From a virus, in the IMG/VR virus record IMGVR_UViG_3300025154_000076, positions 1 through 64,000 of that record: DNA of 64,000 nucleotides; one strand, given 5' to 3'. The position numbers and the translations under genes are program-made. Every line of letters begins with the position of its first letter. Position 1 is the stretch's first letter. Below are positions 2,950-63,284 of this stretch, one piece after another. Below the pieces are notes generated by a model, which was given only the letters and a program-made list of their open reading frames with translations, was not told where the DNA came from and searched no databases.

Positions 2950-3182
2950 GTTATTTTTTTACTGAAAAATCAATTATGGAGGAAGGTACAACCATCCTTT
3001 ATGATAACACCACCTACAAAGAGATAGGAAGGATTAACCCATTATTGCATGATAATTTCACTGCAATAATTACTACAGGAAGAAAAAAGGGAAAACAATT
3101 TCATTCCCGGTTTAAATCCATTTGTGAAGGATGGATAGCATCTCATTTTTACCATAAAAAAAAGAAATCATATGCTTACTAA
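2946..3182 (+). CDS. Small basic protein, unknown
   Basis: A 78-aa protein whose start overlaps the previous gene's stop by 4 bases. The middle looks like a beta-rich fold (GTTILYDNTTYKEIGRI) and the C-terminus is basic (HFYHKKKKSYAY). It carries the first exact copy of the dispersed word (3036-3046). Its last 11 bases overlap the next small membrane gene. Function unknown. Confidence 0.55.
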   Translation: MSYFFTEKSIMEEGTTILYDNTTYKEIGRINPLLHDNFTAIITTGRKKGKQFHSRFKSICEGWIASHFYHKKKKSYAY

Positions 3183-3348
3183 TATTTTAATAACTATATT
3201 TTTGGTTTGGGCAGGACTAAGCGCAACCTTAGTAAACAGCAAAACATCATACATTAAATTGTGGACTGTATTTTTTCCGGTAGGACTATTGTTATTTTTT
3301 ATTGTGGCATTGGATGAAGGGTTGAAATTAATTAAGAAGATTTTTTAA
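3172..3348 (+). CDS. Small two-helix membrane protein
   Basis: A 58-aa ORF starting at ATG 3172 inside the end of the previous gene. It has two hydrophobic stretches, ILITIFLVWAGLSATL (about residues 5-20) and LWTVFFPVGLLLFFIVAL (about 30-47), ending in a basic tail (KLIKKIF). It is the last gene of the plus-strand block: its TAA stop at 3346-3348 overlaps a copy of the dispersed word, and a terminator follows. It could be a holin-like or superinfection-related protein. That is a guess from size and topology. Confidence 0.5.
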   Translation: MLTNILITIFLVWAGLSATLVNSKTSYIKLWTVFFPVGLLLFFIVALDEGLKLIKKIF

Positions 3349-3358
3349 CCCCTTATTC

Positions 3359-3408
3359 CCAAAACAAAAAACAGCTATCAGTTAATTGGTAGCTGTTTTT
3401 GTTTTAGG
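3359..3408. terminator. Bidirectional intrinsic terminator
   Basis: A 10-bp stem (3371-3380 with 3387-3396, one G-T wobble) has a 6-nt loop. It is flanked by an A-rich run on the left and a T-rich run on the right, so it can stop transcription in both directions. It lies between the converging plus-strand genes ending at 3348 and minus-strand genes ending at 3404. Confidence 0.8.
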
Positions 3409-3928
3409 TAAGTTCTAAAATTAGTTTTTCTCTCAAGCGGTATATTTCCATCCAATCACATTTCCCTCCAAGGTCTTTTATCTTATTAGCATAGTTAAGT
3501 CGCTTTTCTATTGTTCCTAAGTCCATGAGATTGTGTTCTTCGGGGGTGAGCAGGATTATGTTTTGTTTTACGAGCCTGTAGAGGGGATAACTTTTCTTAT
3601 TTAGTACATGAGCAAACAAATTTGGGAAATAAGGGGTTCCTGCATATTGGTCTAAAGATATTCCTGTCAAAAAAGATTTATGAACCCTTTCTTTCCATAT
3701 CTCATTGAACATTGCCAATTCTCCTGTAGGTTTTTTAATCTTTGTTTTAACCTTTCCTGTTTTAAGCCTAAAAACATTTGAACAATATTCACATAAACCG
3801 GATGAAAACAAATACCTTGGCCTACCACATCCATATCCCTCTGCCTTGCCGAACCCCTTACATATTTTTTCTTTGCGTTGGATCATATTTTTTGTATGTA
3901 GTGAATTAAATTTTGTTTTAATTTCCAT
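3404..3928 (-). CDS. Zinc-binding HNH-like nuclease, NinG-like
   Basis: I start this 174-aa protein at the ATG ending at 3928 (MEIKTKFNSL). The longer in-frame extension runs into the exonuclease gene and has no other support. The N-terminal half has a zinc-ribbon pattern, with CKGFGKAEGYGCGRP followed by GLCEYC. The C-terminal half (AHVLNKKSYPLYR...NIILLTPEEHNLMD) fits an HNH fold, with His, Asn and His at the expected points. Phage NinG/Rap proteins of this type act on branched recombination intermediates. Its place next to exonuclease, annealing and resolvase genes agrees. The exact family is inferred. Confidence 0.6.
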   Translation of the reverse strand: MEIKTKFNSLHTKNMIQRKEKICKGFGKAEGYGCGRPRYLFSSGLCEYCSNVFRLKTGKVKTKIKKPTGELAMFNEIWKERVHKSFLTGISLDQYAGTPYFPNLFAHVLNKKSYPLYRLVKQNIILLTPEEHNLMDLGTIEKRLNYANKIKDLGGKCDWMEIYRLREKLILELT

Positions 3929-3956
3929 TATTTTAAGTTTTAAATGTTTGACTACG

Positions 3957-5309
3957 TTAATATTCTTTTGGCAATTGCTCAATAATTTTCTTAATAAGAT
4001 CTTCATTAGGCTGAAAATCTTTCTTAATACTTACATTAGCTGCCCTGGTTTTAGATGTAGAACGAGGAAATTTATAGGTTACCTTTCCCATGTTATCTGG
4101 TAGTTCAAGTTCATCCCATCTGCCATCAGATGCTTTTTTTATGAACAGATTTAATATCTCTGTTCTTTTTTCATCCAACACCTTGATATAGTTTCTGAAT
4201 ATTTCATCTTGTTTGGCCAATACCAATTCATCAGGGGTTGCCAATATCTTATTTTCAGGAGTTTCTTTCTCCATGAATTTTTCAGATACATAAGCAGGAT
4301 AATTCACCTCTTTGTTTCCCAAAGGTTCACATTCATTTATCACCTGTTGCGCTCTTTCGGCTGTTTCGAAATCCATTATCTTTTCTGCTTCGTTTCTCAC
4401 CGCAATAGCTTGTCTTGCCCATCTCACTTTTTCCATGAACCCATTACCTTGCTTTAACATAAACTGGATAAAGGGTTCATTACGTTCAAATTTATTCACC
4501 TGGAAGATATTGGATCCTATTTTTACAGGTATTTCTGCATAGTCTGATTCTGATACAAGCATTTGAAGTTGGACTTGTGCTTGGTAACTTTTTGGTAAGA
4601 TAAAATTTCCTGAATTGTAGGATTTAAAAAATATATCACAAATAGTATAATCAGCTCCATAGTCTGTTCCATTATTTCTTGCTACATCGGTGGACATTGT
4701 TTTAGCCTCTACAGGGAACCCATTACTTTGTTCTCCTGTTATCAAATTAACACTTCCTTTTCTTGCCCAAAAATCCAATGAAACAAAGAAATTACGATAA
4801 TCCGGATTAACTAAATATCCTTTTACTTCATCTGCCCTTCTGAAAAGAATATCATTCTTTTGTTTTTCCCTATATGATTTGACCCATATCTCATAATCTT
4901 TAATATTAAATTGATCCACTATTTTTGAATATTCCAATACCGGATCATTTCTTAATGCAAGATCAAGTTTTTTTGATATTTCAATATATCCTTCAGGTGT
5001 ATTATCCCAACATTCCCAAAGTTCTTTTACATCATTCTCACCCCTTCTTCCAAAAAACATAGCTGCATTGTCATAACTCTTGTCAATTGCTTTTTCACCT
5101 ATCTTTTGGTCAAATTTCTGTAAGCAAACATCATATTTCCATGTAAGGTAAAGTATTGTGCCTATCTCTGATGCCCCTATACCTCCATCATAGGCTTTTT
5201 GTCCATAAGGAGCTGCCTGATCATCTGTTAGTCCTAAGGTTCTAAATAAGAACCAATCATCACTGTGTGTGGGGATGTTGTAGTTTAAAAGTTTTTTAAA
5301 TATGTCCAT
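3957..5309 (-). CDS. YqaJ-type viral recombinase/exonuclease
   Basis: A 450-aa member of the lambda-exonuclease/YqaJ branch of PD-(D/E)XK nucleases, which resect double-stranded DNA ends for single-strand annealing. Visible motifs are GIGASEIG (residues 43-50), FFGRRGENDVKELWECW (85-101), LDFWARKGSVNLITG followed by PVEAKT (the D...ExK active site), and a later YQAQVQLQML helix. The C-terminal third (GKVTYKFPRSTSKTRAAN) is a family-typical tail. It is separated by 7 bases from the 132-aa gene upstream, and the annealing protein gene follows that one upstream. The trio forms a typical phage recombination module. Confidence 0.82.
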   Translation of the reverse strand: MDIFKKLLNYNIPTHSDDWFLFRTLGLTDDQAAPYGQKAYDGGIGASEIGTILYLTWKYDVCLQKFDQKIGEKAIDKSYDNAAMFFGRRGENDVKELWECWDNTPEGYIEISKKLDLALRNDPVLEYSKIVDQFNIKDYEIWVKSYREKQKNDILFRRADEVKGYLVNPDYRNFFVSLDFWARKGSVNLITGEQSNGFPVEAKTMSTDVARNNGTDYGADYTICDIFFKSYNSGNFILPKSYQAQVQLQMLVSESDYAEIPVKIGSNIFQVNKFERNEPFIQFMLKQGNGFMEKVRWARQAIAVRNEAEKIMDFETAERAQQVINECEPLGNKEVNYPAYVSEKFMEKETPENKILATPDELVLAKQDEIFRNYIKVLDEKRTEILNLFIKKASDGRWDELELPDNMGKVTYKFPRSTSKTRAANVSIKKDFQPNEDLIKKIIEQLPKEY

Positions 5310-5316: not shown

Positions 5317-5715
5317 TTAACCTTTTACTTGTTCCAATACATCACCAGGCTTTACCTCTTTTTCATGTAATTCTATTAACTTATCCATATTATAGAACCC
5401 ATTATCTTTGCATCGTTCCTTTTCTTCCATCACAAGATTATACCAATGAAGCCAATTAAGGTGTTTTACATCCCTTTCTACATATCTTTTAAAAGCAGAT
5501 AGGTCTGCATTGCGTTTAGCCTTGTAATCATAGGACATCTTACAAAATTGAACCCACTTTTCAGATAGTTTTTCAATCTCTATCTTAAAACCTATAGTAA
5601 ATTCAATCTTATCCCCATTAACGATTAAATAATTATATTTTAACCCTTCATATTGGCCAATCAAATTATTTAATCGTTTAGCAGATTTTTTTTCTAAAAT
5701 AATCTGATGGTTCAT
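5317..5715 (-). CDS. Conserved-looking small protein between exonuclease and annealing genes
   Basis: A 132-aa protein, mostly charged helices after a short beta-rich start (YNYLIVNGDKIEFTIGFKIEI). It overlaps the annealing-protein gene by 4 bases (ATGA) and ends 7 bases before the exonuclease gene. It is therefore probably co-translated with both and may help the recombination pair. No family recognised. Confidence 0.6.
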   Translation of the reverse strand: MNHQIILEKKSAKRLNNLIGQYEGLKYNYLIVNGDKIEFTIGFKIEIEKLSEKWVQFCKMSYDYKAKRNADLSAFKRYVERDVKHLNWLHWYNLVMEEKERCKDNGFYNMDKLIELHEKEVKPGDVLEQVKG

Positions 5716-7517
5716 TTTTCAAATCTTGTTATTTCAAGTTTTATCAGGGCAAGTTCTCCATCGTTACATTTGTAGGCGAAATCAGATAAATCAAGAAATT
5801 TGTTATATCTCTTTTTTATGATCTTAAATATCTGTTCATCGGTAACATCTGATCTTATATCCCTCAATGCCTTCAGTACATTAAAAGCATCTTCCTTTAA
5901 CCTGTTATCCGGGTTCACCTCCTCTTTTTTTTCTTTAACCACCTCTTTTGACACCTTATTCTGTCCTGTGATCACAACCTTTGTTCCGGTAACTAAGGAT
6001 TCTATTATGGATTCAAGAGGTACATCGTTATTCCATAATTTGACAAAGATAAATTGTATGTCATCCTTGCCTGATATGCCTATTACATCGGCTTGCATGA
6101 ACCCCTTATTCGAGTTAAACATCACATTTTTGCTTGTGAAATCAACACCTGAAGCTACCGGGAAACAAATACATTTTGATTTGCCATCTTTGGTGTTGGC
6201 TATATAAGCATCATCCACACTCTCCACTGTGGTTTGTTTTGTTTTGGATGTAGTGGGTTTATCTGGATTAATAATTACTCCTTCAGGAAAAGGATTCATG
6301 TCTTCTAATTCTTTATATCTTTCAGCAAAAACTTCTTTATTAAAAGTACCCTGATACGTTAATGCTTCACCTTCTTTTACCTCTAATGTCATTCCTTGTG
6401 GATATAATACAAATACATGCTTCTTATTTACAGGTGTTGCCAAAATAGATGCCAGTTCGTCTTTATCGAGCCATTTTATGTGATCAATAATAAGAATTTC
6501 TGTATCCCCCGATTTTGTTGTTCCCATAATTTCATCCCCTATATTTATATCATAGGTGAAATTTCTTTTTGCTGTAAACAGATAACAATCTTTCCCTTCC
6601 TTTGTCTGTTTAACCTCAGAATTGTAAAATAGGGTAATGTATTTATCGTAATTCACCTCATTACCATCTATCACCTCTATTGAACCATTATCATTAATTT
6701 TAAGACTATATTCAGAAGAAGTTCGCATATTCAGAACAATGGCTGAATTAGGAAATCTTTCATCCCATTTTTCATTTTTAATAAGATTGAAAACAGCTTC
6801 ATCCTTATTTTCACTTTCAAAAGCCTCAATTATTCTTTGTGCAAGGGCTAATGTTTTTGTAGGTTTAAAATCTTTTCCAATATCATCTTTTGAAAGATAA
6901 CCCTGTGCAAAGATATATTCCCATGCTTCACCTTCATTTTTAAGATTCATATCATCCAAAGAACGAGTTTCCTTTTTTGGCTGTAACTGACTTTCTTCCT
7001 TTTCCCTATTTACAATCTCATTTATTTTGTCATTTATTTTGTCATTTATTTCATCAATGGAGGTAATGGGTTTCATACCATCATTTTCTACCGAAGTTTT
7101 TCTTTTTTCAACCCTTGAACCCATTATTTCATCTGCCCCGGCAAGCACATCATCAATACCTACCCCTGCATGGGCTAAAGCCTTTGATATTGCCCTTGTT
7201 TGTGCTGTGGACAATGCTGTTTCTATTGTACCATATTCGGAGTCATCAAGAGCCTTAAAATAGCTTGCTTCATATACCTCTTTCGGATAAGGGGTTTCAC
7301 TTTCTTTTCTTAACCAATTAAATGTTACCCTAACAGATACAAGCCATCCTGGTATTGCTTTATCATTGTTATAAAGTGTTTCAAATTTTGTTTCTTTAAA
7401 ATAAACACTGTATGTGTTATCTTCCCGGATTGCTTTTAGTCTTTCTGATGCTGAAGCAACATGAATTGTTGCATTACCTTGTTTTATTTCTATTGTCTTT
7501 ACCTCATTTGATTTCAT
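5712..7517 (-). CDS. Putative single-strand annealing protein (Erf/Sak3-like)
   Basis: A 601-aa protein. The N-terminal ~140 residues carry the block TIETALSTAQTRAISKALAHAG, followed by DDVLAGADEI. This resembles the AxExAETRAxGRALaxaG...aSAeEv signature of phage annealing proteins of the Erf/Sak3 type. Such proteins pair complementary strands after the exonuclease has resected an end. The C-terminal part has acidic, Lys-rich linkers and beta-rich segments (KCICFPVASGVDF, KVVITGQNKV) that could bind other proteins. It is unusually long for the family. The ACACACA leader and ATG at 7515-7517 define the start. At least three copies of the dispersed word lie within it (6100, 7118, 7287). Confidence 0.6.
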   Translation of the reverse strand: MKSNEVKTIEIKQGNATIHVASASERLKAIREDNTYSVYFKETKFETLYNNDKAIPGWLVSVRVTFNWLRKESETPYPKEVYEASYFKALDDSEYGTIETALSTAQTRAISKALAHAGVGIDDVLAGADEIMGSRVEKRKTSVENDGMKPITSIDEINDKINDKINEIVNREKEESQLQPKKETRSLDDMNLKNEGEAWEYIFAQGYLSKDDIGKDFKPTKTLALAQRIIEAFESENKDEAVFNLIKNEKWDERFPNSAIVLNMRTSSEYSLKINDNGSIEVIDGNEVNYDKYITLFYNSEVKQTKEGKDCYLFTAKRNFTYDINIGDEIMGTTKSGDTEILIIDHIKWLDKDELASILATPVNKKHVFVLYPQGMTLEVKEGEALTYQGTFNKEVFAERYKELEDMNPFPEGVIINPDKPTTSKTKQTTVESVDDAYIANTKDGKSKCICFPVASGVDFTSKNVMFNSNKGFMQADVIGISGKDDIQFIFVKLWNNDVPLESIIESLVTGTKVVITGQNKVSKEVVKEKKEEVNPDNRLKEDAFNVLKALRDIRSDVTDEQIFKIIKKRYNKFLDLSDFAYKCNDGELALIKLEITRFEK

Positions 7518-7572
7518 GTGTGTGTTTTTTAATTATTAATTATTTTAAACCCCTTATTCATTCTCATTTTTT

Positions 7573-8019: not shown

Positions 8020-8055
8020 TACTATTGTTTTTAATTATTAATTAGTTTAAACCCA

Positions 8056-8445
8056 TTATTCATTCACCACTTCTATATTCCAAGCACTACTATAAATAGT
8101 TTTGATTTCTTTTCCGTTTTTAACATAATACATCAACTCAAAATCATCTGTAATCTTATGACCCAATATTCTGCCACTACTTATTTTTTCTGTAACATAC
8201 AAACGTTGTGATCTTGCTTCTCCTATTGATCTTAATGTAATTAACGGTTTTTTCTCCGCATTTACAAAGGTTCCTTCCATTAAGATAGTTCCTAATAAAT
8301 GATTTTTAATAAAAAACTTAAAATTATTATTAGTTTCTTTTAAAATATTAAACCGAGAACCTAAATCTTGTATGTATTCGTTTAAATTTACAACTTCTCT
8401 TTCAAGTTTTTCTATACTAACTCTTAGTTTTCTTTTTGTTTCCAT
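8056..8445 (-). CDS. Coiled-coil paralogue 2
   Basis: A 129-aa protein with the same layout as 7573-8019: identical first eight residues, a helical N-terminal half, and a C-terminal beta block with the shared IL-G...YYV...W-IE-VNE pattern. Divergence is high between the shared blocks, so the duplication is not recent. Function unknown. It lies between the SSB-like gene and the annealing-protein gene, so a role in DNA metabolism is possible. Confidence 0.6.
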   Translation of the reverse strand: METKRKLRVSIEKLEREVVNLNEYIQDLGSRFNILKETNNNFKFFIKNHLLGTILMEGTFVNAEKKPLITLRSIGEARSQRLYVTEKISSGRILGHKITDDFELMYYVKNGKEIKTIYSSAWNIEVVNE

Positions 8446-8488
8446 GATTATTGTTTTTAAATTATTATTTTATTGAACCCCTTATTCC

Positions 8489-9361: not shown

Positions 9362-9418
9362 TATTTTTAAGTTTTAAATTGTTTATATAATTGAAAATTT
9401 ATTTTGTAACCCTTTATT

Positions 9419-10427: not shown

Positions 10428-10780
10428 AATTCAAATTGGCTTAAATCATTTAATTGTAAATAGTCTACAATATCAATCTGTACATCTTTAATTTCAAATT
10501 GGTATATCTGTTTTGTACTTGCATCTACACATATCACTGTTGGTACTTCTAAAATATCCCTTTTTAATCCTTCTGAACCCATTATTTCCCTTGTTTGCTT
10601 TCCCCAACGAAGGAAATATGCAGGTTTATAGACAGGCTCGGTGGCTTCTAAGGCATTAATTTCTCTTGCCATTCGATCATGTTTTTCATAATTGGGTTCC
10701 CTTAATAAGGCCTCTCTCATTTTATCCAAACGAACCTCTTTCTCATTATAATAAATCATATTTATCTTGCCTATACTCAT
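10424..10780 (-). CDS. Early protein, unknown
   Basis: A 118-aa protein with a charged helical N-terminal half (KEVRLDKMREALLREPNYEKHDRMAREI) and a beta-rich C-terminal half ending in DYLQLNDLSQFEL. It overlaps its neighbours on both sides by ATGA, so it belongs to a tightly coupled early operon. It contains a dispersed-word copy read as the residues IMGS (10576-10586). Function unknown. Confidence 0.6.
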   Translation of the reverse strand: MSIGKINMIYYNEKEVRLDKMREALLREPNYEKHDRMAREINALEATEPVYKPAYFLRWGKQTREIMGSEGLKRDILEVPTVICVDASTKQIYQFEIKDVQIDIVDYLQLNDLSQFEL

Positions 10781-11193
10781 AGCTTATACCCTGCTTTGTT
10801 TTTCAATAAAGTTAAAGTTTTTTCTGTGAAATGAACAAATTTATGCCCTTGTCTTTTTCCTGATATGGAAATAAAGGGTTGCACAAAATCAATTTTATCT
10901 GCAAACTGATTAACACTTGCCAATGATTTCCATCCCATAAGGTCTGTAAATTGTCCTAATTCACATATATTATATGACATAAGGGATGCCACCTCTTTAT
11001 TGGTTAGCTTCAGTTCTCCCCTGTCAATCTTTTGTATTGATGTGAGAAGTTTCTTTGGCCGTTTAACTTTTGTTATTTCAAATACATCAGCATCCACCAA
11101 TTCTCCCTGGTCAACCTCTTTTTTAGGTTTTAACCCCTTATCCGGCTTTTCCTTTTTCTTCCCTTCCCAAAAGGTGTCTATTATATTATTCAT
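10777..11193 (-). CDS. Putative helix-turn-helix early protein
   Basis: A 138-aa protein. After a charged, Lys-rich N-terminal third, the segment LTNKEVASLMSYNICELGQFTDLMGWKSLASVNQFADKI reads like helices that could form an HTH, but the fit is weak. It overlaps the downstream gene by 4 bases and the DnaA-like gene upstream by 8 bases. Context suggests a replication or regulatory accessory role. Confidence 0.5.
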   Translation of the reverse strand: MNNIIDTFWEGKKKEKPDKGLKPKKEVDQGELVDADVFEITKVKRPKKLLTSIQKIDRGELKLTNKEVASLMSYNICELGQFTDLMGWKSLASVNQFADKIDFVQPFISISGKRQGHKFVHFTEKTLTLLKNKAGYKL

Positions 11194-11791
11194 CTGGTAA
11201 ATAGTTGTTTTTAAATTTATTATCTAAATATTCAATATACATTCTAAACTCCCTGTTCGTTTCTATTAAATTATTCACTGTTTTACAGGCATGTAACACT
11301 GTGGCATGGTCTTTATCTCCATATTGCTGTCCTACCTTCTCCAATGATGTCCTTTTTATTAATTTCATGGCAAAATACATAGCTATCTGCCTGCACTGAA
11401 CCACCTCTCTCTTTCTTGTCTTTATTAATATACTGTCCTCTTTAAGCTTAAAATATGATTCCACCTCTAATTTAATAATGTTGTAATTTATCTTCTCTAT
11501 CCGGTCTGTTTTAGTAAAGAGTAAAACATTATCCCCTTCTTTTATACCCATTATTTTGTCAAATAACTCGGCTTTGTCCAATAATGATAAGGCTTTTATT
11601 TCTGATTTATTATAGATAATCTTTTGCTTACCATGAAAAACTACAAATAAGGGGTTCGATGTCCATGCCTCCTTCATGCTGTTTAGAACACCCTTATAAA
11701 CCCCACCATTGTCCTCCGCTATTATCTTGTATTCCCTATTGAACCCTTGTACTCCCTTACTTTTACTTATTAAGCTTAGTATGTTCATCAC
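11186..11791 (-). CDS. Protein with a DnaA domain IV (origin-binding) C-terminus
   Basis: A 201-aa protein. Residues ~125-195 (REVVQCRQIAMYFAMKLI...SLEKVGQQYGDKDHATVLHACKTVN) match DnaA domain IV. The GDKDHATVLHA stretch (about 158-168) is the signature helix that reads DnaA boxes, written G-R-DHTTVLHA in cellular DnaA. There is no AAA+ ATPase, so this is not a full initiator. The N-terminal ~120 residues match nothing I know. It may bind origin sites as a phage initiator, or compete with host DnaA. Coupled by overlap to the downstream gene. Confidence 0.78.
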   Translation of the reverse strand: MMNILSLISKSKGVQGFNREYKIIAEDNGGVYKGVLNSMKEAWTSNPLFVVFHGKQKIIYNKSEIKALSLLDKAELFDKIMGIKEGDNVLLFTKTDRIEKINYNIIKLEVESYFKLKEDSILIKTRKREVVQCRQIAMYFAMKLIKRTSLEKVGQQYGDKDHATVLHACKTVNNLIETNREFRMYIEYLDNKFKNNYLPDE

Positions 11792-12222: not shown

Positions 12223-12242
12223 GTTATTATTTTTTTAACCCA

Positions 12243-12443
12243 TTATCTAATACACCAACCATCAAATATTTGCCTTTCAAAATCATCTTTGGCAACTATT
12301 AATCCTTCTTTTCTTTTTAAACAACGCATCCAATGATATGATACTGATGCAATACCTCTTTCAACCCTTTCTCCACAATGATTACATATAAGATAATCAC
12401 CAAACACCTTATCTTTTTCAAAAATTGTTTTAAAATCTTCCAT
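12243..12443 (-). CDS. Small zinc-finger-like protein
   Basis: A 66-aa protein with the pattern CNHCGERVERGIASVSYHWMRC (written here only to show its Cys and His residues). It has two close cysteines, then a histidine and a cysteine about 15 residues on, which could hold one zinc ion. It ends close upstream of the next gene and starts 24 bases after the previous one. Small zinc-binding proteins are common in phage early operons; partner unknown. Confidence 0.55.
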   Translation of the reverse strand: MEDFKTIFEKDKVFGDYLICNHCGERVERGIASVSYHWMRCLKRKEGLIVAKDDFERQIFDGWCIR

Positions 12444-14033: not shown

Positions 14034-14264
14034 TCATGTTTTGGTTGTACCTCCAATAGTGGCAAGAAGGGTTATAAGTCCTGATAAAACACCACAAATA
14101 GCCACTATCCCTGTTACATCATAGTTTTTGTCATGTAACTGTCCATAGATATATACTAAACCCATTATTGTGGAAAGAATAATAACAACAATTGCTGTCA
14201 ATAATGAGATAGTCCTTTTGGAAGATGTATTTCCTTCTCTGTCTTGTAATAATTCACTTCCCAC
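14034..14264 (-). CDS. Putative holin
   Basis: A 76-aa protein with two strong membrane segments, LLTAIVVIILSTIMGLVYIY (about residues 21-40) and VTGIVAICGVLSGLITLLA (about 50-68), separated by a short polar turn. Size, topology and position directly before the amidase fit a class II holin. The start overlaps the preceding coiled-coil gene by 11 bases. Confidence 0.65.
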   Translation of the reverse strand: MGSELLQDREGNTSSKRTISLLTAIVVIILSTIMGLVYIYGQLHDKNYDVTGIVAICGVLSGLITLLATIGGTTKT

Positions 14265-52270: not shown

Positions 52271-52359
52271 ACATTAATTTTTCAATGTTTGAAACCCCTT
52301 ATTTTCCCATTCTTTTTTGTATATTGCACCTGAATTTCTCGACTAATTTTTTTATGTTA

Positions 52360-52558: not shown

Positions 52559-52578
52559 GTTTTCACAAATAGTTGTCT

Positions 52579-54401: not shown

Positions 54402-54587
54402 ATGGCAAAAAAGAAAGATAAGTTAGCAGAGGGCAGGTCAACATCATTTGATCCAGACCTGTTAATAAAGATTGAGCAACAGGCTAAAGAAGAAGGAAGG
54501 ACATTTAGTGGGATGGTAAACTTTATGGCATTAAAATATTTGAAAGATATATTTTCGGAAAAACAAAATCAAAATAAAGGGATGTAA
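54402..54587 (+). CDS. Ribbon-helix-helix-like small DNA-binding protein
   Basis: A 61-aa protein with a basic tail, then [36 protein letters not shown]. This is a strand, a helix, a turn with Gly-Arg-Thr and a second helix, as in Arc/CopG-type repressors. These bind DNA as dimers through the strand. It lies alone between a terminator and the next gene, suggesting its own promoter in the AT-rich stretch upstream. Confidence 0.6.
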
Positions 54588-55042: not shown

Positions 55043-55051
55043 CTATTGACT

Positions 55052-55102: not shown

Positions 55103-55126
55103 AATAAAGGGTTATAACCCATTATT
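55103..55126. repeat. Palindrome of two dispersed words
   Basis: Two copies of the dispersed word face each other with only two bases between (55103-55113 and 55116-55126), forming an almost perfect 24-bp palindrome. There is no T run on the plus side, so it may bind a dimeric protein rather than act as a terminator. Confidence 0.7.
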
Positions 55127-55448: not shown

Positions 55449-55492
55449 TATCTTCTCAAAATAAAGGGTTCGATTTATTAACAATTAAATAT

Positions 55493-56023
55493 ATGAAAAC
55501 TATGAAACTATTAGCAGACATCCTTGATGAACTAACACCTAATGAATTTTTTATCCTTGTCTTTGTGGCAAGAGAAGCAACAAATGGTATAACCTATTTT
55601 TCAATGAGTGAAGCACAGAAAGTTTCAAAAATTGATGATGTAGAAGAAATAAAAAGATGTATTGATAGGCTTATTGAACTTGAGTTTGTTGAATTCAGAG
55701 ATGTGGAGGGTCAATACATTAAAATTAAAGTGATCAATAAAAAAATTAAACCTTCCAATTTAAGGCATAAACCCTTTATTCCCCCAACGTTTGAGGAGAT
55801 AAAAGCATACCTTGAAATGGTTAAGGTGAGAAATGGGTATGATATTCCACCGGAAAGGGTTTATGAATACTATGGTGATAGTAATTGGATAGACAGCCAG
55901 GGTAATCCTGTAAAAAATTGGAAAGCCAAAATATTGAACAATTGGCTTAAGCCACAGTATAAGGTTAATACCAAAAATAATAATGCTAAAGATAACACCT
56001 ACAAACAGTGGGGCAAAGCCTAA
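55493..56023 (+). CDS. Helicase-loader / replication accessory protein
   Basis: A 176-aa protein. I start it at ATG 55493 (MKTMKLLADILDELTPNEFF); the longer ORF from 55361 runs through the tRNA-like structure and is unlikely. The N-terminal part is winged-helix-like. The C-terminal part FIPPTFEEIKAYLEM, then WIDSQGNPVKNWKAKILNNW, matches the tail of phage replication proteins that load DnaB (P..eEv.aY...W.d..G.pvkNWKa.l..W). DnaB itself is encoded two genes on, which supports this role. Confidence 0.7.
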   Translation: MKTMKLLADILDELTPNEFFILVFVAREATNGITYFSMSEAQKVSKIDDVEEIKRCIDRLIELEFVEFRDVEGQYIKIKVINKKIKPSNLRHKPFIPPTFEEIKAYLEMVKVRNGYDIPPERVYEYYGDSNWIDSQGNPVKNWKAKILNNWLKPQYKVNTKNNNAKDNTYKQWGKA

Positions 56024-56053
56024 ATAAAGGGTTCAAACTAAAATTTTACAACC

Positions 56054-56194
56054 ATGTTTAAATTAGCTAAAATACTTAATTACATATCCGAAAACAGGGA
56101 TTGTGTTTACATTTTAATATTTGCCTTATTGGCTGTAATAGCTATTATTGCTGTTGTTTTTTATTCTATAAGTTATGGTACAAACCCCTTATAA
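56054..56194 (+). CDS. 46-aa single-pass membrane protein
   Basis: A short ORF from ATG 56054. It has a polar N-terminus with one Cys (YISENRDCVY), one membrane helix (ILIFALLAVIAIIAVVFYSI) and a short tail. Its end overlaps the start of the zinc-ribbon gene by 20 bases. The helix is convincing; the role is unknown. Confidence 0.45.
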   Translation: MFKLAKILNYISENRDCVYILIFALLAVIAIIAVVFYSISYGTNPL

Positions 56195-56504
56195 ATGGAA
56201 TAAATACATAGCCAATAAGGGCAAATGTGATTTCTGTGGGGTAAAGAGGGATTATTATAACTGCCGGATAACAACAGATGGGTTTCTTGCTTGTCGCACC
56301 TGTTATAATAATAAAGGGTCAAAAACAGTGGAGGAGTTCAGGGAATATATAAGGGGTTGCATCCGCAAACTTAAAAACAGGAGGATGCCACCGGAATACA
56401 GGATAGCCTCACGCTATGGAGCTGCAACACATAACCATTATTTTCTATTCTCTTTTGAAAGAAAACTAAAAAAAGCAAAAGAAAAACTCAGGAACAAAAA
56501 ATGA
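56175..56504 (+). CDS. Zinc-ribbon protein
   Basis: A 109-aa protein with two CxxC pairs (CDFCG and CRTC, about 25 residues apart) holding one zinc, and a basic C-terminal half (ERKLKKAKEKLRNKK). It overlaps dnaB by 4 bases, so it may work with the helicase, perhaps as a primase-like or DNA-binding partner. No primase motifs are visible. Confidence 0.6.
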   Translation: MVQTPYKWNKYIANKGKCDFCGVKRDYYNCRITTDGFLACRTCYNNKGSKTVEEFREYIRGCIRKLKNRRMPPEYRIASRYGAATHNHYFLFSFERKLKKAKEKLRNKK

Positions 56505-57967
56505 AACAGGATTTACTCTCTATATTGGATTATGACAAGATACCTCCACAGGATATTGCAATGGAAGAAGCAGTGATTGGTGGGATATTAATAGAATCAT
56601 TAGCATTTGATTTAGTGGTAGATATTTTAACCCCTGATTCATTTTATAAAGAAACCCATAAATTCATATATCAGACTATATTCAACCTCAACAAAAAAAA
56701 CAAAGAGATTGATATTCTAACGGTAAAAGATGAACTTCAAAATAATGGGTTATTAGAAAAGATTGGTGGGGCATACTACCTAACTACCTTAACACAAAGA
56801 ACATCATCTATTGCCTCCATACAGGAATGGGCATTAAGGATAAAAGAAAAATACATACGAAGATTATTAATACAAAAATCAACAGAAACAAGAGATTCAG
56901 CCTATGACGAAAGCAAGGACTTAGAACACACACTTGACATGCTTAATATTACGATTGATACTGTTAATAAAGAAACAACAATCGGAACAGGATTAACCCA
57001 TATATCCAGCATAGCTGTTAAAGCAAGCGAAGATTTAAACCATAAGATTGAAAAAGCCAATAGAGGAGAGGTTCTTGGTGTACCTACCGGACTTACAAAG
57101 CTTGATAGTATGACATTAGGGTGGTTGCCAGGGCTTCTTATTATCATTGCAGCCAGGCCTTCATTGGGTAAAACAGCCTTTATGATTAAATTCGCTAAGA
57201 TAGCAGCTAAAAATGGGTATAAAGTGTTAATCTTCTCTATTGAGATGAATGAAATAAGTTTGGTTCATAGGCTGATTCTTTCTGAAACCACTGTTGACCA
57301 TGAAAAATACAGATCAGGAAAAGGCATAACTGAAGATGAAATGATGCAAATAAAGGGTTCATCAAAAATCATTGCGGATCTGCCTATTTACATTGATGAT
57401 AATCCCTATGCCACAGTATCATATATGCGAAGCCATGCAAGAATAAGAAAGAAAGCAGGGGAATGTGATATGATCATGGTTGACTATTTACAAATTGTAA
57501 CCCCACAAAAAGAAAAAGGCAGATCAAGGGATGAAGAAGTGGGAACCATTACCTCAGGGTTAAAAGCCATTGCCAAAGAACTTAAAGTTCCGGTTATTGC
57601 CCTTGCTCAATTAGGAAGAAAAGTGGAGGACATGAAAGACAATAGACCCAAGCTTTCCACATTAAGAGAATCAGGAAACATAGAGGCTGATGCTGATATG
57701 GTATTGGGAATACACCGACCAAATTATTATGGTGATTTATTTATTGATGAATATGTAGGAGGTAGATCAATAAGTGTATCTGCAATAAATAGGGGACATC
57801 TTATTGTACTTAAACATAGGGATGGGCCTGTGGGATATATCCCATTTTATTATTCCGATAATTTAGCAGTGATAGAAGATGCGGATTATAAAGAAAGGGT
57901 TGCAGTAGATTATGACCCTGATACATATATTAAACCAGTGGGAGATGATGAAGATCTTCCTTTTTAA
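56501..57967 (+). CDS. dnaB: Replicative DNA helicase DnaB
   Basis: A 488-aa helicase that unwinds DNA at the phage fork. The N-terminal domain PPQDIAMEEAVIGGIL is typical. The RecA-like part has Walker A AARPSLGKTAF (217-227), then FSIEMNE, Walker B MIMVDYLQIV and the sensor region VIALAQL...LRESGNIEADAD. The C-terminus is unusual: the last residues VGDDEDLPF match an SSB-type tail, as in the SSB-like protein at 8489. It overlaps the upstream zinc-ribbon gene. Confidence 0.93.
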   Translation: MKQDLLSILDYDKIPPQDIAMEEAVIGGILIESLAFDLVVDILTPDSFYKETHKFIYQTIFNLNKKNKEIDILTVKDELQNNGLLEKIGGAYYLTTLTQRTSSIASIQEWALRIKEKYIRRLLIQKSTETRDSAYDESKDLEHTLDMLNITIDTVNKETTIGTGLTHISSIAVKASEDLNHKIEKANRGEVLGVPTGLTKLDSMTLGWLPGLLIIIAARPSLGKTAFMIKFAKIAAKNGYKVLIFSIEMNEISLVHRLILSETTVDHEKYRSGKGITEDEMMQIKGSSKIIADLPIYIDDNPYATVSYMRSHARIRKKAGECDMIMVDYLQIVTPQKEKGRSRDEEVGTITSGLKAIAKELKVPVIALAQLGRKVEDMKDNRPKLSTLRESGNIEADADMVLGIHRPNYYGDLFIDEYVGGRSISVSAINRGHLIVLKHRDGPVGYIPFYYSDNLAVIEDADYKERVAVDYDPDTYIKPVGDDEDLPF

Positions 57968-57982
57968 ACCCATTATTCAAAC

Positions 57983-58357
57983 ATGATAAATTTTTTACTA
58001 CATAAAGAAAACGCTAAATTCCTAAAGTTCCTGTATGATTGTCCAAAGGATAAATGGTTAACAATAAATAAGGGGTCATACAAACAATGGGATGAAATAA
58101 TTGTTAAGATAATGAATAATGGGTTCTTTAGATTTGAGTGGATTTTTAATTTATCCCCGGAGCAGATGGTGATGATTGCAAAATTCTTCGAGATACCCCT
58201 TCCTGAATGGCATAAGGCAATACATAATGGGAAAATACATAAAGACAAGATGTTTGATGATGACAAAAAAAGACACCTGTATTTAACTATCAAAAAATTC
58301 ATCTTTAAATTTTCTAAGGATAATACACAATTTATAAAAGAATCAGTTAAATTTTAA
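57983..58357 (+). CDS. Small protein downstream of dnaB, unknown
   Basis: A 124-aa helical, Lys- and Phe-rich protein (MINFLLHKENAKFLKFLYDC...). It has two copies or near-copies of the dispersed word inside (58067, 58115) and one just before its start (57967-57977). No family recognised. Position suggests co-transcription with dnaB. Confidence 0.55.
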   Translation: MINFLLHKENAKFLKFLYDCPKDKWLTINKGSYKQWDEIIVKIMNNGFFRFEWIFNLSPEQMVMIAKFFEIPLPEWHKAIHNGKIHKDKMFDDDKKRHLYLTIKKFIFKFSKDNTQFIKESVKF

Positions 58358-58361: not shown

Positions 58362-58940
58362 ATGGAACAAAAAATCAAACCTGAAGAATTTTTTCTTTAC
58401 AAAGGAAAGACCTATGTAGCCAGGATGGTTACAGACACAAAGGTGGTGGGTGTATTAAGACGATCATCAGAAACAAAAACAGGGTTTATGGAATGTGATA
58501 TTTCAGAAATAGAACGCCCTGTGCAGGTGATATGCAAAATGCTTGCGGTACCTTCAAAGCCAAAGAAAGGAGATATAATCAGGGTATGGGCTAAAGGTTC
58601 TGATATACCCACTATCTCCCGAATGGTAATGCCAATAGAGAATAAGGGGTTTCTCGAAAATCATAAGGTAGAGAGATTGTTGCCTTTCTTTTTCGGATTG
58701 GAACACCGGGAAATACTCGAAGGAAGTTATTTTAGCTTATCACAATTTGCATTATCAGAATCAATGCACAAATGGCTACTTGGAAAACCAACACCTGAAG
58801 GAGCAAAACATCTTAAAGATAATTACATAGTAGAGGTAGAATTTACTAAAGGAATGGTAGTGGTGCATAATGTGGAAGGGGAATCCATTCCTGTGATTAA
58901 AACTAATATCACCGACGGGGAAAATGAATGGTATGTGTAA
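58362..58940 (+). CDS. Protein of unknown function, end of replication operon
   Basis: A 192-aa alpha/beta protein: FLYKGKTYVARMVTDTKVVGVLRR, then PKKGDIIRVWAKGSD, and a C-terminal KGMVVVHNVEGESIPVI. The beta-rich ends look like small barrels. It is 4 bases after the previous gene. The IS element begins about 150 bases downstream. No family recognised. Confidence 0.55.
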   Translation: MEQKIKPEEFFLYKGKTYVARMVTDTKVVGVLRRSSETKTGFMECDISEIERPVQVICKMLAVPSKPKKGDIIRVWAKGSDIPTISRMVMPIENKGFLENHKVERLLPFFFGLEHREILEGSYFSLSQFALSESMHKWLLGKPTPEGAKHLKDNYIVEVEFTKGMVVVHNVEGESIPVIKTNITDGENEWYV

Positions 58941-58996
58941 CGTTTAGTATATGAAAAAAATTTATTTAACAACAAGGGCATATCTCATTCAGTAGA

Positions 58997-59098
58997 ATGG
59001 TTGAAATGCTAAATGAGGAGGCAAAACGTGAAATAACAGCAGAAGAAGCTGGATTATTTTCAAGACCTGAATGTGTTTGTGAACTACCCACACACTAA
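58997..59098 (+). pseudogene. Gene start cut by the IS element
   Basis: An ORF of 33 codons (MVEMLNEEAKREITAEEAGLF ... CVCEL) runs straight into the left end of the IS and stops there in the CCCACACA stem. The Glu/Ala-rich start reads like the beginning of a real helical protein. No continuation is found on the other side of the IS, so the rest may be lost, or the ORF may be fortuitous. Confidence 0.35.
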
Positions 59099-59131
59099 AA
59101 AGATGTGTGGGCTTCCTGCACAACGCATAGC

Positions 59132-60250
59132 CTAATGGCTTACGTTAGCGTACAAAGGGTTGTCCCTAACCCCAAAATTCTTTATATTATATGCAGCATT
59201 CAAATCCCTATCTATTGAATTATTACACTTATCACAATTGTAAGTTCTATCTGAAAGTTTTAAATCTTTCTTGTGATTTCCACAATTAGAACATACTTTA
59301 CTGCTTGGTTCAAATCTGCCAATTACAACAAGATTTTTACCTTGCCATTCAGTTTTATATTCAAGCATTGTTCTTAATTGTCGCCAACCCATTTCAGATA
59401 TGGCTTTAGCTAAATTATGGTTCTTAACCATATTACTAACTGCTAAATCTTCTAATACAATTGTGTTATACGTGTTTACTAATTCAGTAGATATTTTATG
59501 CAAGTAATCAGTCCTTTGGTTACGGATTTTTTCTTGCAATAATGCTACTTTTAATTTTTGTTTTTCTCTATTTATTGAACCTTTCTGTTTTCTTGCAAAG
59601 CTTCTCTGTTCAACTCTTAATCTTCTTTGTTGCGATTTGAAAAAGTTTTTATTTTCATACACCACACCATCAGAAGTAATTGCTAAATCTTTAATCCCAA
59701 AATCAATACCAACAGATGTTTCGGATTTAATTGGTTTTTGCTTTGGTTTTTCTATTTGTGTATCAACCAATATTGATACAAAGTATTTACCAGTAACAGT
59801 TTTGCTTAATGTAACTCTTTTTGGTAATCCTTTGAACAATCTATGATAATCAATAGCAACCTCTTTTAATTTAGGTAATTTTAAAATGTTGTTATCAAAA
59901 TCAACCTCAAAACCTTGTGGAAATGTAACTGACTGCTTAGAGTATCTATTCTTGTATTTAGGAAACTGACCTTTGCCTTTAAAAAAGTTTTGATATGCTG
60001 TATCTAAATTGATAATACTATGTTGTAGTATTTGACTTGGACATTCTTTAATGTAATCAAATTCCTTTCTTAATTCTGGAAGTTGTTTAATTAAATCATA
60101 TTTAGATATTGATGTTTTATTTGAAGCATACGCAACAGTCTTGGTCTCTAAACCAAGATTATATACCAATCTATTTACACCAAAATACCTTTGTAATTGG
60201 TTTTTTTGGTCATCCGTTGGGAATATTCTGTATTTGTATCCTTTAAGCAT
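59132..60250 (-). CDS. tnpB: TnpB RNA-guided nuclease
   Basis: A 372-aa protein, ancestor-type relative of Cas12. All RuvC parts are intact: Asp183 in GIDFGIKDLA, Glu267 in IVLEDLAV, a zinc finger with Cys320, Cys323, Cys339 and Cys342, and a final Asp in IDRDLNAAYNI. It cuts DNA matching a guide copied from the flank of the transposon, favouring retention of the element. The guide RNA would run from the 3' end of tnpB through the left hairpin and into the phage sequence below about 59087. Confidence 0.92.
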   Translation of the reverse strand: MLKGYKYRIFPTDDQKNQLQRYFGVNRLVYNLGLETKTVAYASNKTSISKYDLIKQLPELRKEFDYIKECPSQILQHSIINLDTAYQNFFKGKGQFPKYKNRYSKQSVTFPQGFEVDFDNNILKLPKLKEVAIDYHRLFKGLPKRVTLSKTVTGKYFVSILVDTQIEKPKQKPIKSETSVGIDFGIKDLAITSDGVVYENKNFFKSQQRRLRVEQRSFARKQKGSINREKQKLKVALLQEKIRNQRTDYLHKISTELVNTYNTIVLEDLAVSNMVKNHNLAKAISEMGWRQLRTMLEYKTEWQGKNLVVIGRFEPSSKVCSNCGNHKKDLKLSDRTYNCDKCNNSIDRDLNAAYNIKNFGVRDNPLYANVSH

Positions 60251-60396
60251 ATATTATTAAATAGTCTAAACTTTTGTAAAAGTACAACATTTTTATCTAA
60301 ATTACAAGTTTTGGTTAAATTTATTTTATTTGATACCGTATTTTGTTTAAATCATTCCGTCTTTGGTTGTAAATAATTTAAACAAAATACTACATT

Positions 60397-60801
60397 ATGC
60401 AATCAAATTACATTTCTACAAATCATTCAAAACACTATTTAAAATGTCATCTAATTCTCGTTACTAAGTATCGTAAAAATATGTTAGTTGGTCAATTAAA
60501 TGATGATTTAAAAGATATATTCAGTTCCATAGCAGATAACTCAGATTTTGAAATAGAAGTTATGGAGTCTGATGTAAACCATATTCATTTCTTAATTAGG
60601 TACATACCTCGCCTATCTATATCCCAAATGGTTCGTAGGCTTAAACAAGAATCTACTCGTCAGTTATGGTTATTGCATCATACTACTTTACGTCAGTATT
60701 ATTGGTATCGTAAAATACTTTGGAGTGATGGGTTCTTCGTTTGTTCAATAGGTGAAGCAAGTCCAGATACTATCCGTCAATATATTTTAAGCCAAGGTTA
60801 A
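60397..60801 (+). CDS. tnpA: IS200/IS605 transposase TnpA (Y1 HUH)
   Basis: A 134-aa single-strand transposase. The HUH motif is HIHFLI (about residues 62-67), with the catalytic Tyr in the C-terminal helix (TIRQYILSQG). The start ISTNHSKHYLKCHLILVTKYRKN matches the family. It is apparently intact, so the element may still move. The 146-base gap to tnpB holds both start regions and no other gene. Confidence 0.92.
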   Translation: MQSNYISTNHSKHYLKCHLILVTKYRKNMLVGQLNDDLKDIFSSIADNSDFEIEVMESDVNHIHFLIRYIPRLSISQMVRRLKQESTRQLWLLHHTTLRQYYWYRKILWSDGFFVCSIGEASPDTIRQYILSQG

Positions 60802-60816
60802 TCATACCTTTGTCGC

Positions 60817-61026
60817 TTACATCCCATCCACGCTAAAAAGCGATGAATGGGTTTTACGCTCCTTTTTATCAATAGGTATGATAATAACAGCAGCAGGAAC
60901 TAAGCATCCCAGAGAAAGCCTGCTTCCATTTTCATTATAGTGTTCACAATCCATACATTCAACATCTTTTGTCATTGTAGCTGTATTCAAATGATCACAC
61001 TCCGCATTAATATAATCACATCTCAT
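60817..61026 (-). CDS. Cys-rich small protein, C-terminus supplied by the IS end
   Basis: A 69-aa protein with Cys pairs that could bind zinc (MRCDYINAECDHLN, VECMDCEHYNENG). The last ~15 residues (KERKTHSSLFSVDGM) are encoded by the right hairpin of the IS element, so the insertion has probably replaced the natural end of the gene. Function unknown. Confidence 0.5.
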   Translation of the reverse strand: MRCDYINAECDHLNTATMTKDVECMDCEHYNENGSRLSLGCLVPAAVIIIPIDKKERKTHSSLFSVDGM

Positions 61027-61074
61027 AATTTATTATTTTAAGATTTAATAACTTCATTTCATCAGAATAATGGG

Positions 61075-61365
61075 TTACAGATAAAAGCTTTCAAACATTA
61101 TTACTACAAATGACCTTACATATTCAAATAATTCTTTTTTTCCTTCCGGCATTTCCTTTCCTGGTTCACAACTCATAAAATATATCAGGGCTGCATCGGT
61201 GTGCAGGGCAGAGGCTATATCTGTTAATGTAGTATATGTAGGATTAAATCTACCATTTTCTATTTGGTTCATAGATGTTGTACTCAATCCACACATCTTG
61301 GCCAGTTCTTTTTGTGATAACCCTTTATTCTTTCTTAGTTTTGTTATTGTAGCTCCTATATTCAT
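61075..61365 (-). CDS. XRE-family helix-turn-helix regulator
   Basis: A 96-aa protein. IGATITKLRKNKGLSQKELAKMCGLSTTSMNQIENGRFNPTYTTLTDIASAL is a clear Cro/C1-type HTH (key parts: LSQKELA, STTSMNQIE, NPTYTTL). The C-terminal ~40 residues may serve dimerisation. It could repress phage promoters or respond to the host state. The gene has dispersed words at both ends (61066 and 61319). Confidence 0.85.
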   Translation of the reverse strand: MNIGATITKLRKNKGLSQKELAKMCGLSTTSMNQIENGRFNPTYTTLTDIASALHTDAALIYFMSCEPGKEMPEGKKELFEYVRSFVVIMFESFYL

Positions 61366-61410: not shown

Positions 61411-61944
61411 TTAATTCCCGATCGGCGCATACATTTTGTATCTTATCGTGTAACCATTAATCATATTTCCTTTTTTTATGGCCCGATATACCTTCATCCT
61501 ACTTACCCCAAAGTGCTTCAATAGGTCATTTATACTACTAAAATAAAGGGTTTCAGAAGAATTAAAGGCTTCCATCTTTCGCATTGTACCCTTATCATTA
61601 ACCAAAGCAGCTATATCTTCAGGCATCTTCAGATCATAAAAGGTTTTTTCATCAATAGTGTTGAATTTACAAAATGTCTTTTTTACATATTCAAGGTTTT
61701 CAACGCAATTATTCATCCTATTGCAATCTATATGACTTATAGCATACCCATCAGGCATTGGTTCCAGAAAGTGAGAAGAAACCAAAACATGGGCATAATA
61801 ATGGGTTCCTTCTATAAAATACCTAACATAACTATACCTCCCCACAATAATGGGTTTCAAATATCTCTTTAATACATAAGAATAAACCAACCCCATATCT
61901 GTTATTCCATATCTATTACCCATTCCTATCATATACACTATCAT
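61411..61944 (-). CDS. HNH homing-type endonuclease
   Basis: A 177-aa protein. GYAISHIDCNRMNNCVENLEYV is the HNH_3 core (His, Asn, Asn, Asn-Leu). The C-terminal SSINDLLKHFGVSRMKVYRAI, then NGYTIRY, resembles the NUMOD1-type DNA-binding helix-turn-helix. Such free-standing homing nucleases spread between related phages by cutting alleles that lack them. Three dispersed words lie inside, so the gene is at home in this genome or has been here a long time. Confidence 0.8.
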   Translation of the reverse strand: MIVYMIGMGNRYGITDMGLVYSYVLKRYLKPIIVGRYSYVRYFIEGTHYYAHVLVSSHFLEPMPDGYAISHIDCNRMNNCVENLEYVKKTFCKFNTIDEKTFYDLKMPEDIAALVNDKGTMRKMEAFNSSETLYFSSINDLLKHFGVSRMKVYRAIKKGNMINGYTIRYKMYAPIGN

Positions 61945-62049: not shown

Positions 62050-62577
62050 AATTAATCACATTTTAATTATACAAATATATGCAATTAATACAATATATCC
62101 AAACTTATTTATGTTTCACTTATATTATACCCATATTATTAGATGTACAAAAATAAAATATAAAATAAAAATGGGATTTTGTGGATGTAGTCGATATATA
62201 TAGGGTACACACCAGATGTGGCGCAAAATGCGGATTTGCGGGGGTGTGGGGGTGTTTTCGGAATCGCATAAAACAAACGAAATGCAGTGCTAATAATATA
62301 TATATGATCTTGCCTATTGCGTGGAAAGCATATATTGTTATATATTGTATGAATCATAATCTTAATTATTGGGCTTATTCCGTTTCCCTAACTGCCTGAT
62401 AATCACTCGTGCAAGACAAATGAGAGTATAAGAATGCAGAAAGCGAATGTAAATAGGGCAATTGTGGACAGGTTGGCAGGTGTTCAGGTTGTGTCCTGAT
62501 GGTTGTGTAATTAGTAGAAAAATTGGCATCCAGGGCGCAAGATAGGACACAAAAAAAGTAATAATTACCCTTAATTC
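62050..62577. other. Divergent intergenic region, richer in GC, no gene; possible origin or control region
   Basis: About 530 bases separate the minus-strand HNH operon from the plus-strand gene at 62654. ORFs here are short and unlike proteins. The middle (62150-62560) is richer in G and C than its surroundings and includes a G-rich stretch near 62240. It has an exact 9-bp inverted repeat (62489-62497 with 62544-62552) and TGTGGATGT / TGTGGACAG words at about two mismatches or more from a DnaA box. Several CAGGT and GTTGTG repeats lie at 62460-62515. Confidence 0.45.
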
Positions 62578-62578
62578 A

Positions 62579-62606
62579 TTGAATTTACGTATATTTATTA
62601 AATTTG
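62579..62606 (+). promoter_or_regulatory. Promoter for the 113-aa gene
   Basis: TTG (62579-62581) and TAAATTTG (62599-62606), 17 bases apart, fit the Bacteroidota consensus. The leader to the start at 62654 is about 40 bases and A-rich, without Shine-Dalgarno sequence. Confidence 0.5.
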
Positions 62607-62653
62607 AATCACAATTTTAAATTGAAAAAAATTAAATAAGCAATAAAACAACA

Positions 62654-62995
62654 ATGTCAACAAGAAAACATAAGCAGCATAGCTATATAATAGATACAAT
62701 ACTAAGGAGCTATAATATAAGTAATACAATAGGTCTTAAGTATAATGAGATAATACTCTTAGTTTCATTATTTTATAGAACCCTTTATTTTGATTGTACT
62801 TTTAAAAGTACAGTTGAAAACATAACTATAATAACAAACATAAGATATAATACTGTCAGTATGCTATTAAATGACTTAATCAAATCTAAATATGTAATTA
62901 AAATCGGATTAATATATAATATTAGCGATAAAGGTAAACATCTCATAAAAAACTATCTGGCTGTAGTAGAATCTACTAACTTATATTTAAAATAA
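62654..62995 (+). CDS. Winged-helix-like regulator
   Basis: A 113-aa protein with helices, then a STVENITIITNIRYNTVSMLLNDLIKSKYVIKIG block and a short wing (LIYNISDKGKHLI). This is the order of MarR/PadR-like transcription factors. Codon use is extremely AT-rich. One dispersed word (62779) lies in the gene and one (63001) directly after it. Targets unknown. Confidence 0.55.
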   Translation: MSTRKHKQHSYIIDTILRSYNISNTIGLKYNEIILLVSLFYRTLYFDCTFKSTVENITIITNIRYNTVSMLLNDLIKSKYVIKIGLIYNISDKGKHLIKNYLAVVESTNLYLK

Positions 62996-63284
62996 TCCGA
63001 AACCCCTTATTTCCATATTTTCCTCATCCTTCGCAAAAATCCGACAAGTCGCACAACCGGGTCAATATAAAAGCTGATCTATATCATGCTGTTGTATGTT
63101 CTATAACAGGTATTAAGTTGATGGAACCCATTATTTTGATTTTTCATGAATTTTTATTCATTTGTAATTATTTGAATATCAATAGATAAAGTATTTTTTA
63201 ACAAAATAAATGTTAAAATATTTGCAGAATGATTGTAATGGGTATAGATTTACATAACAAATTCATTCACTAAAAAAATTAGCA
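62996..63284. other. Intergenic region with two dispersed words
   Basis: There is no credible gene in this stretch. It holds two copies of the dispersed word (63001-63011 and 63125-63135), a small inverted repeat (ATGAAT/ATTCAT near 63147-63162) and an AT-rich stretch before the next start. No full promoter consensus was found. Confidence 0.5.

Follow-up and report, generated by a model that had tools for sequence, protein, structure and literature searches.

We analysed a window of 64,000 nucleotides, the first 64,000 bases of the 72,079-bp IMG/VR virus record IMGVR_UViG_3300025154_000076 (the remainder was read as L001), and a short word, ATAANGGGTT, that recurs along it. The record is a tailed phage encoding a terminase, a portal protein, a RecE-like exonuclease, a DnaB-type helicase, a TnpB, a RusA-like resolvase and a C5 methylase, together with a crAss-type muzzle domain that scored near the Pfam cut-off. 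Its terminase relatives are mainly Flavobacterium and Cellulophaga phages at <30% identity. The ends of the whole 72,079-bp record overlap, and the genome is therefore circular or circularly permuted. A second contig, IMGVR 3300025009_000255, matched it without a difference over the 22,265 bp compared, which rules out assembly noise as the source of the words in that stretch, although this contig may derive from the same sample. The statistics below describe this one genome, with a hand-picked gene set.

Exact copies of ATAANGGGTT numbered 65 in the window (29 on the plus and 36 on the minus strand), of which 50 read AATAANGGGTT, and 74 in the whole record (30 plus, 44 minus), or approximately one per kb. 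A preliminary description of this DNA had claimed at least 60 copies on both strands against about one by chance. The count and the strong excess both held, while the chance level proved too low, as order-3 Markov simulations gave a mean of 3.5 and a maximum of 8 copies. Read backwards, the same pattern occurred three times in the whole record. The word itself was the commonest of the form 4-N-5 in the genome, and in scans of contiguous and gapped words of 8–11 letters it far exceeded all other words of the genome and also the top word of every other phage examined. Thus, the enrichment is real and exceeds the first claim. The base N was T in 30, G in 29 and A in 15 of the 74 copies; C was never found there, as had been stated, but with about three C expected its absence is only weakly significant.

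The pressure that maintains the word acts on DNA and not on protein. When synonymous codons were shuffled within each gene, preserving protein and codon use, 4.1 sense and 2.7 antisense copies were expected in coding sequences, where we observed 24 and 24; the word was thus far above expectation in both the Markov and the shuffle comparison. The exact word contains TAA and is therefore barred from one sense frame, in which no copy was found, while the two stop-free frames held 11 and 13. Use of both these frames had been described before, with the NKG frame at 6100 and the IRG frame at 13457 correctly read, and had been taken to mean pressure on DNA or RNA; the synonymous shuffle and the frame analysis bear this out at the DNA level. 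The stop frame uses AGAANGGGTT instead, with GAA for TAA (12 copies against 1.4 expected, and at most 5 in 1,000 shuffles), a form scarce in the other frames. Gaps between genes, which pose no obstacle to the perfect word, held 26 exact copies but only 5 of the 68 one-mismatch variants. Near-perfect sites are therefore made where perfect ones are impossible. The genome is AT-rich, and repetitive coding regions at 18.3–19.2 kb and 34 kb contribute variant copies, so an artefact of protein sequence or base composition might be supposed; it is refuted by the two controls, the frame use and the copies in gaps, and its probability is negligible.

Copies occur both in genes and in gaps, as first reported, and gaps are enriched: they make up 9.7% of the genome yet hold 26 of the 74 exact copies, the other 48 (65%) lying inside genes. 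Per kb, gaps of the structural region had 4.8 exact words and those of the other word-bearing region 4.9, against 0.41 and 1.23, respectively, in coding sequence. The equal gap densities suggest that location is irrelevant and that coding constraint sets the rest. When strands were mapped, copies lay on both, and 37 of the 74 shared the strand of their gene, so there is no relation to the direction of transcription. A hint of replication polarity, a change of preferred strand close to 47.6 and 62 kb (p = 0.036 for exact words and 0.011 for all sites by permutation), was too weak to build on.

Five pairs of words lay at most 25 bp apart, and all five were inverted with GGGTT pointing inward (P = 0.00075). 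The pairs at 39,117 and 51,665 folded as hairpins (z about −6.3), the latter being found also by a terminator scan, and these two of the five tight pairs are predicted to form terminators. Such hairpins, together with the enrichment in gaps and three copies placed exactly 30 nt upstream of start codons, are what a polar transcription signal might leave, be it a stoperator-like repressor site, a promoter element or a terminator. However, a plain transcription signal is opposed by the lack of relation to gene strand (37/74) and by the location of 48 of the 74 copies within genes, 24 of these being antisense; stoperators, by contrast, are found mainly in short gaps and share one orientation. A test for a phage promoter element found the word neither placed nor oriented by gene starts. 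We therefore consider a transcription signal very improbable.

Exact copies were absent between 21,070 and 29,140, from the IS605 region at 58.65–61.06 kb, and from record position 68.14 kb round to window position 2.39 kb, a void of 6.3 kb of cassette-like DNA (Poisson P = 6 × 10−6 for all sites, 0.0015 for exact words). As neither the IS605 region nor the cassette DNA carries the word, it belongs to the resident backbone; the earlier description of it as genome-wide holds for that backbone only, and not every block has copies. If the word were a recombination or drive element, with word-bearing DNA preferentially copied or donated among phages until every permitted place was filled, it would likewise build up regardless of location within the limits that coding sets, and would be lacking in new DNA; the phage does encode a RecE-like exonuclease and a RusA-like resolvase. 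We nevertheless hold this to be quite unlikely, as the analysis turned up no sister genomes that differ in having or lacking the word at one and the same position, and near-perfect sites where the perfect form is forbidden fit a need for binding at least equally well. The positions of the copies, pairs and word-free regions in the window are listed in Table 1 with the candidate reader genes discussed below.

Table 1. Word copies, inverted pairs, word-free regions and candidate reader genes (window coordinates)
Feature	Position	Strand	Remarks
Exact word ATAATGGGTT	3036..3045	-	in gene, antisense
Exact word	3347..3356	-	gap
Exact word	3629..3638	+	
Exact word	4468..4477	+	
Exact word	5396..5405	-	
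Exact word	6100..6109	-	codons AAT-AAG-GGG-TT, NKG frame
Exact word	7118..7127	-	
Exact word	7287..7296	+	
Exact word	7548..7557	-	gap, start codon 30 nt on
Exact word	8050..8059	-	gap edge, start codon 30 nt on
Exact word	8476..8485	-	gap, start codon 30 nt on
Exact word	9408..9417	-	gap
Exact word	10576..10585	-	
Exact word	10871..10880	+	
Exact word	11132..11141	-	
Exact word	11647..11656	+	
Exact word	12237..12246	-	gap edge
Exact word	13289..13298	-	
Exact word	13457..13466	-	codons ATA-AGG-GGT, IRG frame
Exact word	14159..14168	-	
Exact word	15942..15951	-	
Exact word	18830..18839	+	
Exact word	19757..19766	+	
Exact word	19877..19886	-	
Exact word	21060..21069	-	
Exact word	29141..29150	-	
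Exact word	29798..29807	+	
Exact word	30404..30413	-	gap edge
Exact word	31657..31666	-	
Exact word	35235..35244	+	
Inverted word pair	39117..39147	+39117, -39138	gap 11, intergenic, intrinsic terminator hairpin predicted, z -6.35
Exact word	40759..40768	-	
Inverted word pair	44712..44741	+44712, -44732	gap 10, within terminase gene, hairpin not predicted
Exact word	47430..47439	-	
Exact word	47613..47622	+	
Exact word	48163..48172	+	
Exact word	49079..49088	+	
Exact word	49205..49214	-	
Exact word	49481..49490	+	
Exact word	50834..50843	+	
Inverted word pair	51665..51692	+51665, -51683	gap 8, intergenic, predicted terminator hairpin, T-rich tail, z -6.34
Exact word	52293..52302	-	within divergent region 52236-52572
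Inverted word pair	55104..55125	+55104, -55116	gap 2, intergenic, z -2.69
Exact word	55461..55470	+	
Exact word	55770..55779	-	
Exact word	56024..56033	+	gap
Exact word	56183..56192	-	
Exact word	56349..56358	+	
Exact word	56742..56751	+	
Exact word	57350..57359	+	
Exact word	57967..57976	-	gap edge
Exact word	58116..58125	+	
Exact word	58642..58651	+	
Exact word	61067..61076	+	gap edge
Exact word	61319..61328	-	
Exact word	61543..61552	+	
Exact word	61798..61807	+	
Exact word	61847..61856	+	
Exact word	62779..62788	-	
Exact word	63001..63010	-	gap
Exact word	63125..63134	-	gap
Word-free cassette-like island, part	1..2392		continues from record 68,142
Word-free IS605 region (TnpB, TnpA)	58652..61066		
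Candidate reader, first guess: 270-aa orphan	52573..53385	+	weak helix-turn-helix (HTH) matches, residues 33-86 and 171-196
Candidate reader, not favoured: 201-aa protein, DnaA domain IV	11186..11791	-	PF08299, residues 106-172
Candidate reader: XRE/Cro-type HTH regulator	61075..61365	-	putative role
Candidate reader: small protein, weak winged-HTH match	62654..62995	+	putative role
Candidate reader: ribbon-helix-helix protein, RHH_5	54402..54587	+	putative role

The cassette-like array runs from record 67.8 to 72.08 kb (L001:7777-12079) and on through window 1-2000, with all its genes on one strand. Several are followed by TAACG...GTTA hairpins resembling integron attC sites, the clearest at L001:10652-10795 (z −3.05) and the others weaker or unsupported. 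Its genes include a D12 methylase, a YopX protein and the C5 methylase, and no integrase was seen with it; integrons in phages are already known (PMC9892861). The C5-methylase segment (window 116-1323; record 71839-72079) is present at the left end and absent from the overlapping right end, with junctions at TAACG, as if it were a cassette carried by part of the population. A GroES-like co-chaperonin of the phage is encoded at window 2393-2728. The IS605-type element (window 59132-60801), with TnpB and an IS200-like TnpA, is word-free. A genome search with TnpB as a pointer to the host returned distant matches only (Calidithermus, Glycomyces, Dactylosporangium and Acidithiobacillus).

The word is part of a longer site. 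Counted position by position, base −1 was A or G in 71 of the 74 copies, G was scarce at +10 and +11, and +11 and +14 were mostly A or C. The information spans about 17 bp, is asymmetric and has the consensus RAATAADGGGTTHMANM. A 17-bp weight matrix with a threshold of at least 12 bits recovered 143 sites against 11.8 expected (137 in the final run). Of all single changes, A0G, T1G, A2C, G6T and T9C stood 6- to 12-fold above expectation, a clear excess; that of T9A was mild (2.8-fold). Four A2C variants, at 34,096-34,519, sit in a 138-bp tandem repeat near 34 kb. The open reading frame (ORF) there, 31866-35708 (1280 aa), contains a tandem duplication of 138-bp period (window 33979-34580) and dispersed duplications (32241-32485/33282-33526). 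Most of the tolerated changes preserve the keto or amino group exposed in the major groove, which suggests direct readout by a protein. We judge it very probable that a protein reads the word.

We favour the reading that the word is the core of an asymmetric site of about 17 bp recognised by a sequence-specific DNA-binding protein, which most likely is a phage product and acts across the whole resident genome. Such a reader would need many sites and not sites at particular promoters, would probably be a monomer or a two-domain protein, and may act like P1 C1, the L5 repressor and other proteins with dispersed operators to coat, organise or silence resident phage DNA. We give a dispersed site for a genome-wide binding protein an even chance; whether the reader is the phage's own protein we judge to be similarly balanced. 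Of the roles listed in the preliminary description, a chromosome-organising or genome-wide binding protein would fit best. Several points weigh against this reading. Binding by any protein is itself deduced, and all the statistics come from one genome, in which tandem repeats inflate some variant counts, as with the four A2C copies. The word is absent from relatives, which leaves no co-occurrence by which to pair a reader with it, and single-sequence structure models of two candidates were uninformative (predicted local distance difference test, pLDDT, 37–38).

Among the candidate readers, the orphan protein at 52573-53385 was placed first because an extended site without symmetry is well matched to a monomer carrying a pair of DNA-binding domains, of which the L5-type repressor is an example; it is a guess by analogy, and both its HTH matches fall below Pfam cut-offs. 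No C1 homologue was named among the proteins scanned (part of the proteome), nor any homologue of the L5 repressor, although an XRE-type regulator and the two-HTH orphan are present. Alternatively, the reader could be the DnaA-domain-IV protein of the phage, with the word as a re-specified DnaA box. There is no doubt about the domain (PF08299, E = 2 × 10−21; 1J1V, E = 1 × 10−12), and DnaA boxes (TTATNCACA), which have a 4-N-4 shape, are asymmetric with a free middle base, as in ATAANGGGT. However, its recognition helix resembles that of Bacteroidota DnaA, canonical boxes were not enriched (8 versus 5.6), and tolerance of T-to-G changes in the AT half would be ill-suited to minor-groove reading. 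Phage loci with DnaA_C also had dispersed words no more commonly than controls (median best score 10.2 versus 9.3; 74 such loci, 43 controls), so that an association of DnaA_C with dispersed words was not supported, and this protein was rejected as first choice. A search of IMG/VR for close kin of the DnaA_C protein gave none. We regard the DnaA reading as doubtful, with little probability left to it.

No terminase relative of the 80 searched exceeded chance for this word, and each of 17 whole records held 0–2 copies. It is private to this phage across approximately 120 loci, relatives and comparison loci together. In IMG/VR, scans for inverted word pairs brought up no other phage of this type apart from its own second contig. 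The high counts they returned were rejected as a different thing, coming from mostly large phage contigs of 44–52% GC with TATAAATAAGGGGTTAC before genes; in four of these (L004, L005, G062 and G048), some very large, the many TATAAATAAGGGGTTAC-like elements, several directly before genes, are a possible phage promoter family. MW202828 carries 14 copies of a 16-bp palindrome, GTGTCGTTAACGACAC, confined to its early block (43749-55158) and often directly before genes, and another phage (G030) carries about 13 copies of GTGTCTTYRAAGACAC or near forms. These are probably operators of related dimeric regulators, and as dimer-type operators they were dropped as support for a DnaA reading. Mild over-representation of a further word, TTGCGCCCG, was seen in the sister phages G022, G023 and G027, which have a DnaA-domain protein in common.

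It has also to be considered that the word is a host signal that the phage has accumulated for protection or recombination, such as an uptake sequence or a recombination site of the Chi type. Its density of about one per kb, its presence on both strands, the 65% of copies inside genes against 90% coding, the terminator-forming inverted pairs and the absence from recently gained DNA would suit such a signal, and are much as in Haemophilus and Neisseria uptake sequences; the weak change of strand at about 47.6 and 62 kb would suit it too. Against it, the word was at chance level in two Bacteroidales chromosomal pieces of about 100 kb each (0 and 1 copies), which may not be the host's, phage relatives lack it, and a site of about 17 bp is longer than known Chi sites, which are 7–8 bp. 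We consider a host signal unlikely. Two records, OY725985.1 and NZ_OY725752.1, are filed as plasmids and look like chromosome pieces, with dnaA in both and ribosomal protein genes in the second.

By analogy of behaviour, the nearest known system is the bacterial uptake sequence. In Haemophilus, 65% of uptake sequences lie in ORFs in a genome that is 86% coding. Like the Neisseria and Haemophilus sequences (PMC2346458, PMC2397512), this word occurs about once per kb on both strands, is about 65% intragenic, is selected at the DNA level and forms tight inverted pairs that serve as terminators (here predicted), so the likeness first drawn from density alone extends to these properties. Unlike them, it sits in a phage and is private to it, and no uptake machinery is known to be involved. 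A tentative extension, possible though below our favoured reading, is a genome-wide phage self-tag, in which many dispersed asymmetric sites, maintained by selection wherever they are permitted, would mark the resident chromosome to be organised, protected, packaged or preferentially recombined by a protein of the phage; we found no phage self-tag system of this kind described in the literature covered. Should the reader be a phage protein, the word would stand as the equivalent in a phage of uptake sequences or nucleoid-protein sites, and would open a direct test of how a phage discriminates self from host DNA. A host signal, on the other hand, may point to a Chi or uptake sequence of the host lineage that is not yet on record.

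By phage location, the nearest systems would be the P1 C1 operators, the cluster A stoperators and SPBRE, all of which have fewer copies than this word as far as the literature says. P1 has 22 asymmetric 17-bp C1 operators dispersed over its genome (PMC8546580), similar in form to the present sites, which number 74 exact and about 137 in total, with two thirds of the exact copies intragenic. The stoperators of L5 and Bxb1 are likewise asymmetric (13 bp), phage-specific and many per genome, and their reader is a monomeric protein with a pair of DNA-binding domains (PMC9283540, PMC6550527), but they lie in short gaps and mainly in one orientation relative to transcription, and this word does neither. 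SPBRE of SPbeta is also a phage-specific repeated element, of 15 bp and read by the master repressor MrpR (PMC10516654), but is intergenic where our word is mostly intragenic. DnaA boxes share the asymmetry and the free middle base, and the phage encodes a DnaA domain IV, but the word departs from TTATNCACA and the association was unsupported; it thus fails the defining tests of both stoperators and DnaA boxes. Known dispersed phage operators come in tens of copies and mostly in gaps, whereas here selection extends to codon choice genome-wide, and wherever the perfect word would bring in a stop codon the nearest allowed form is used.

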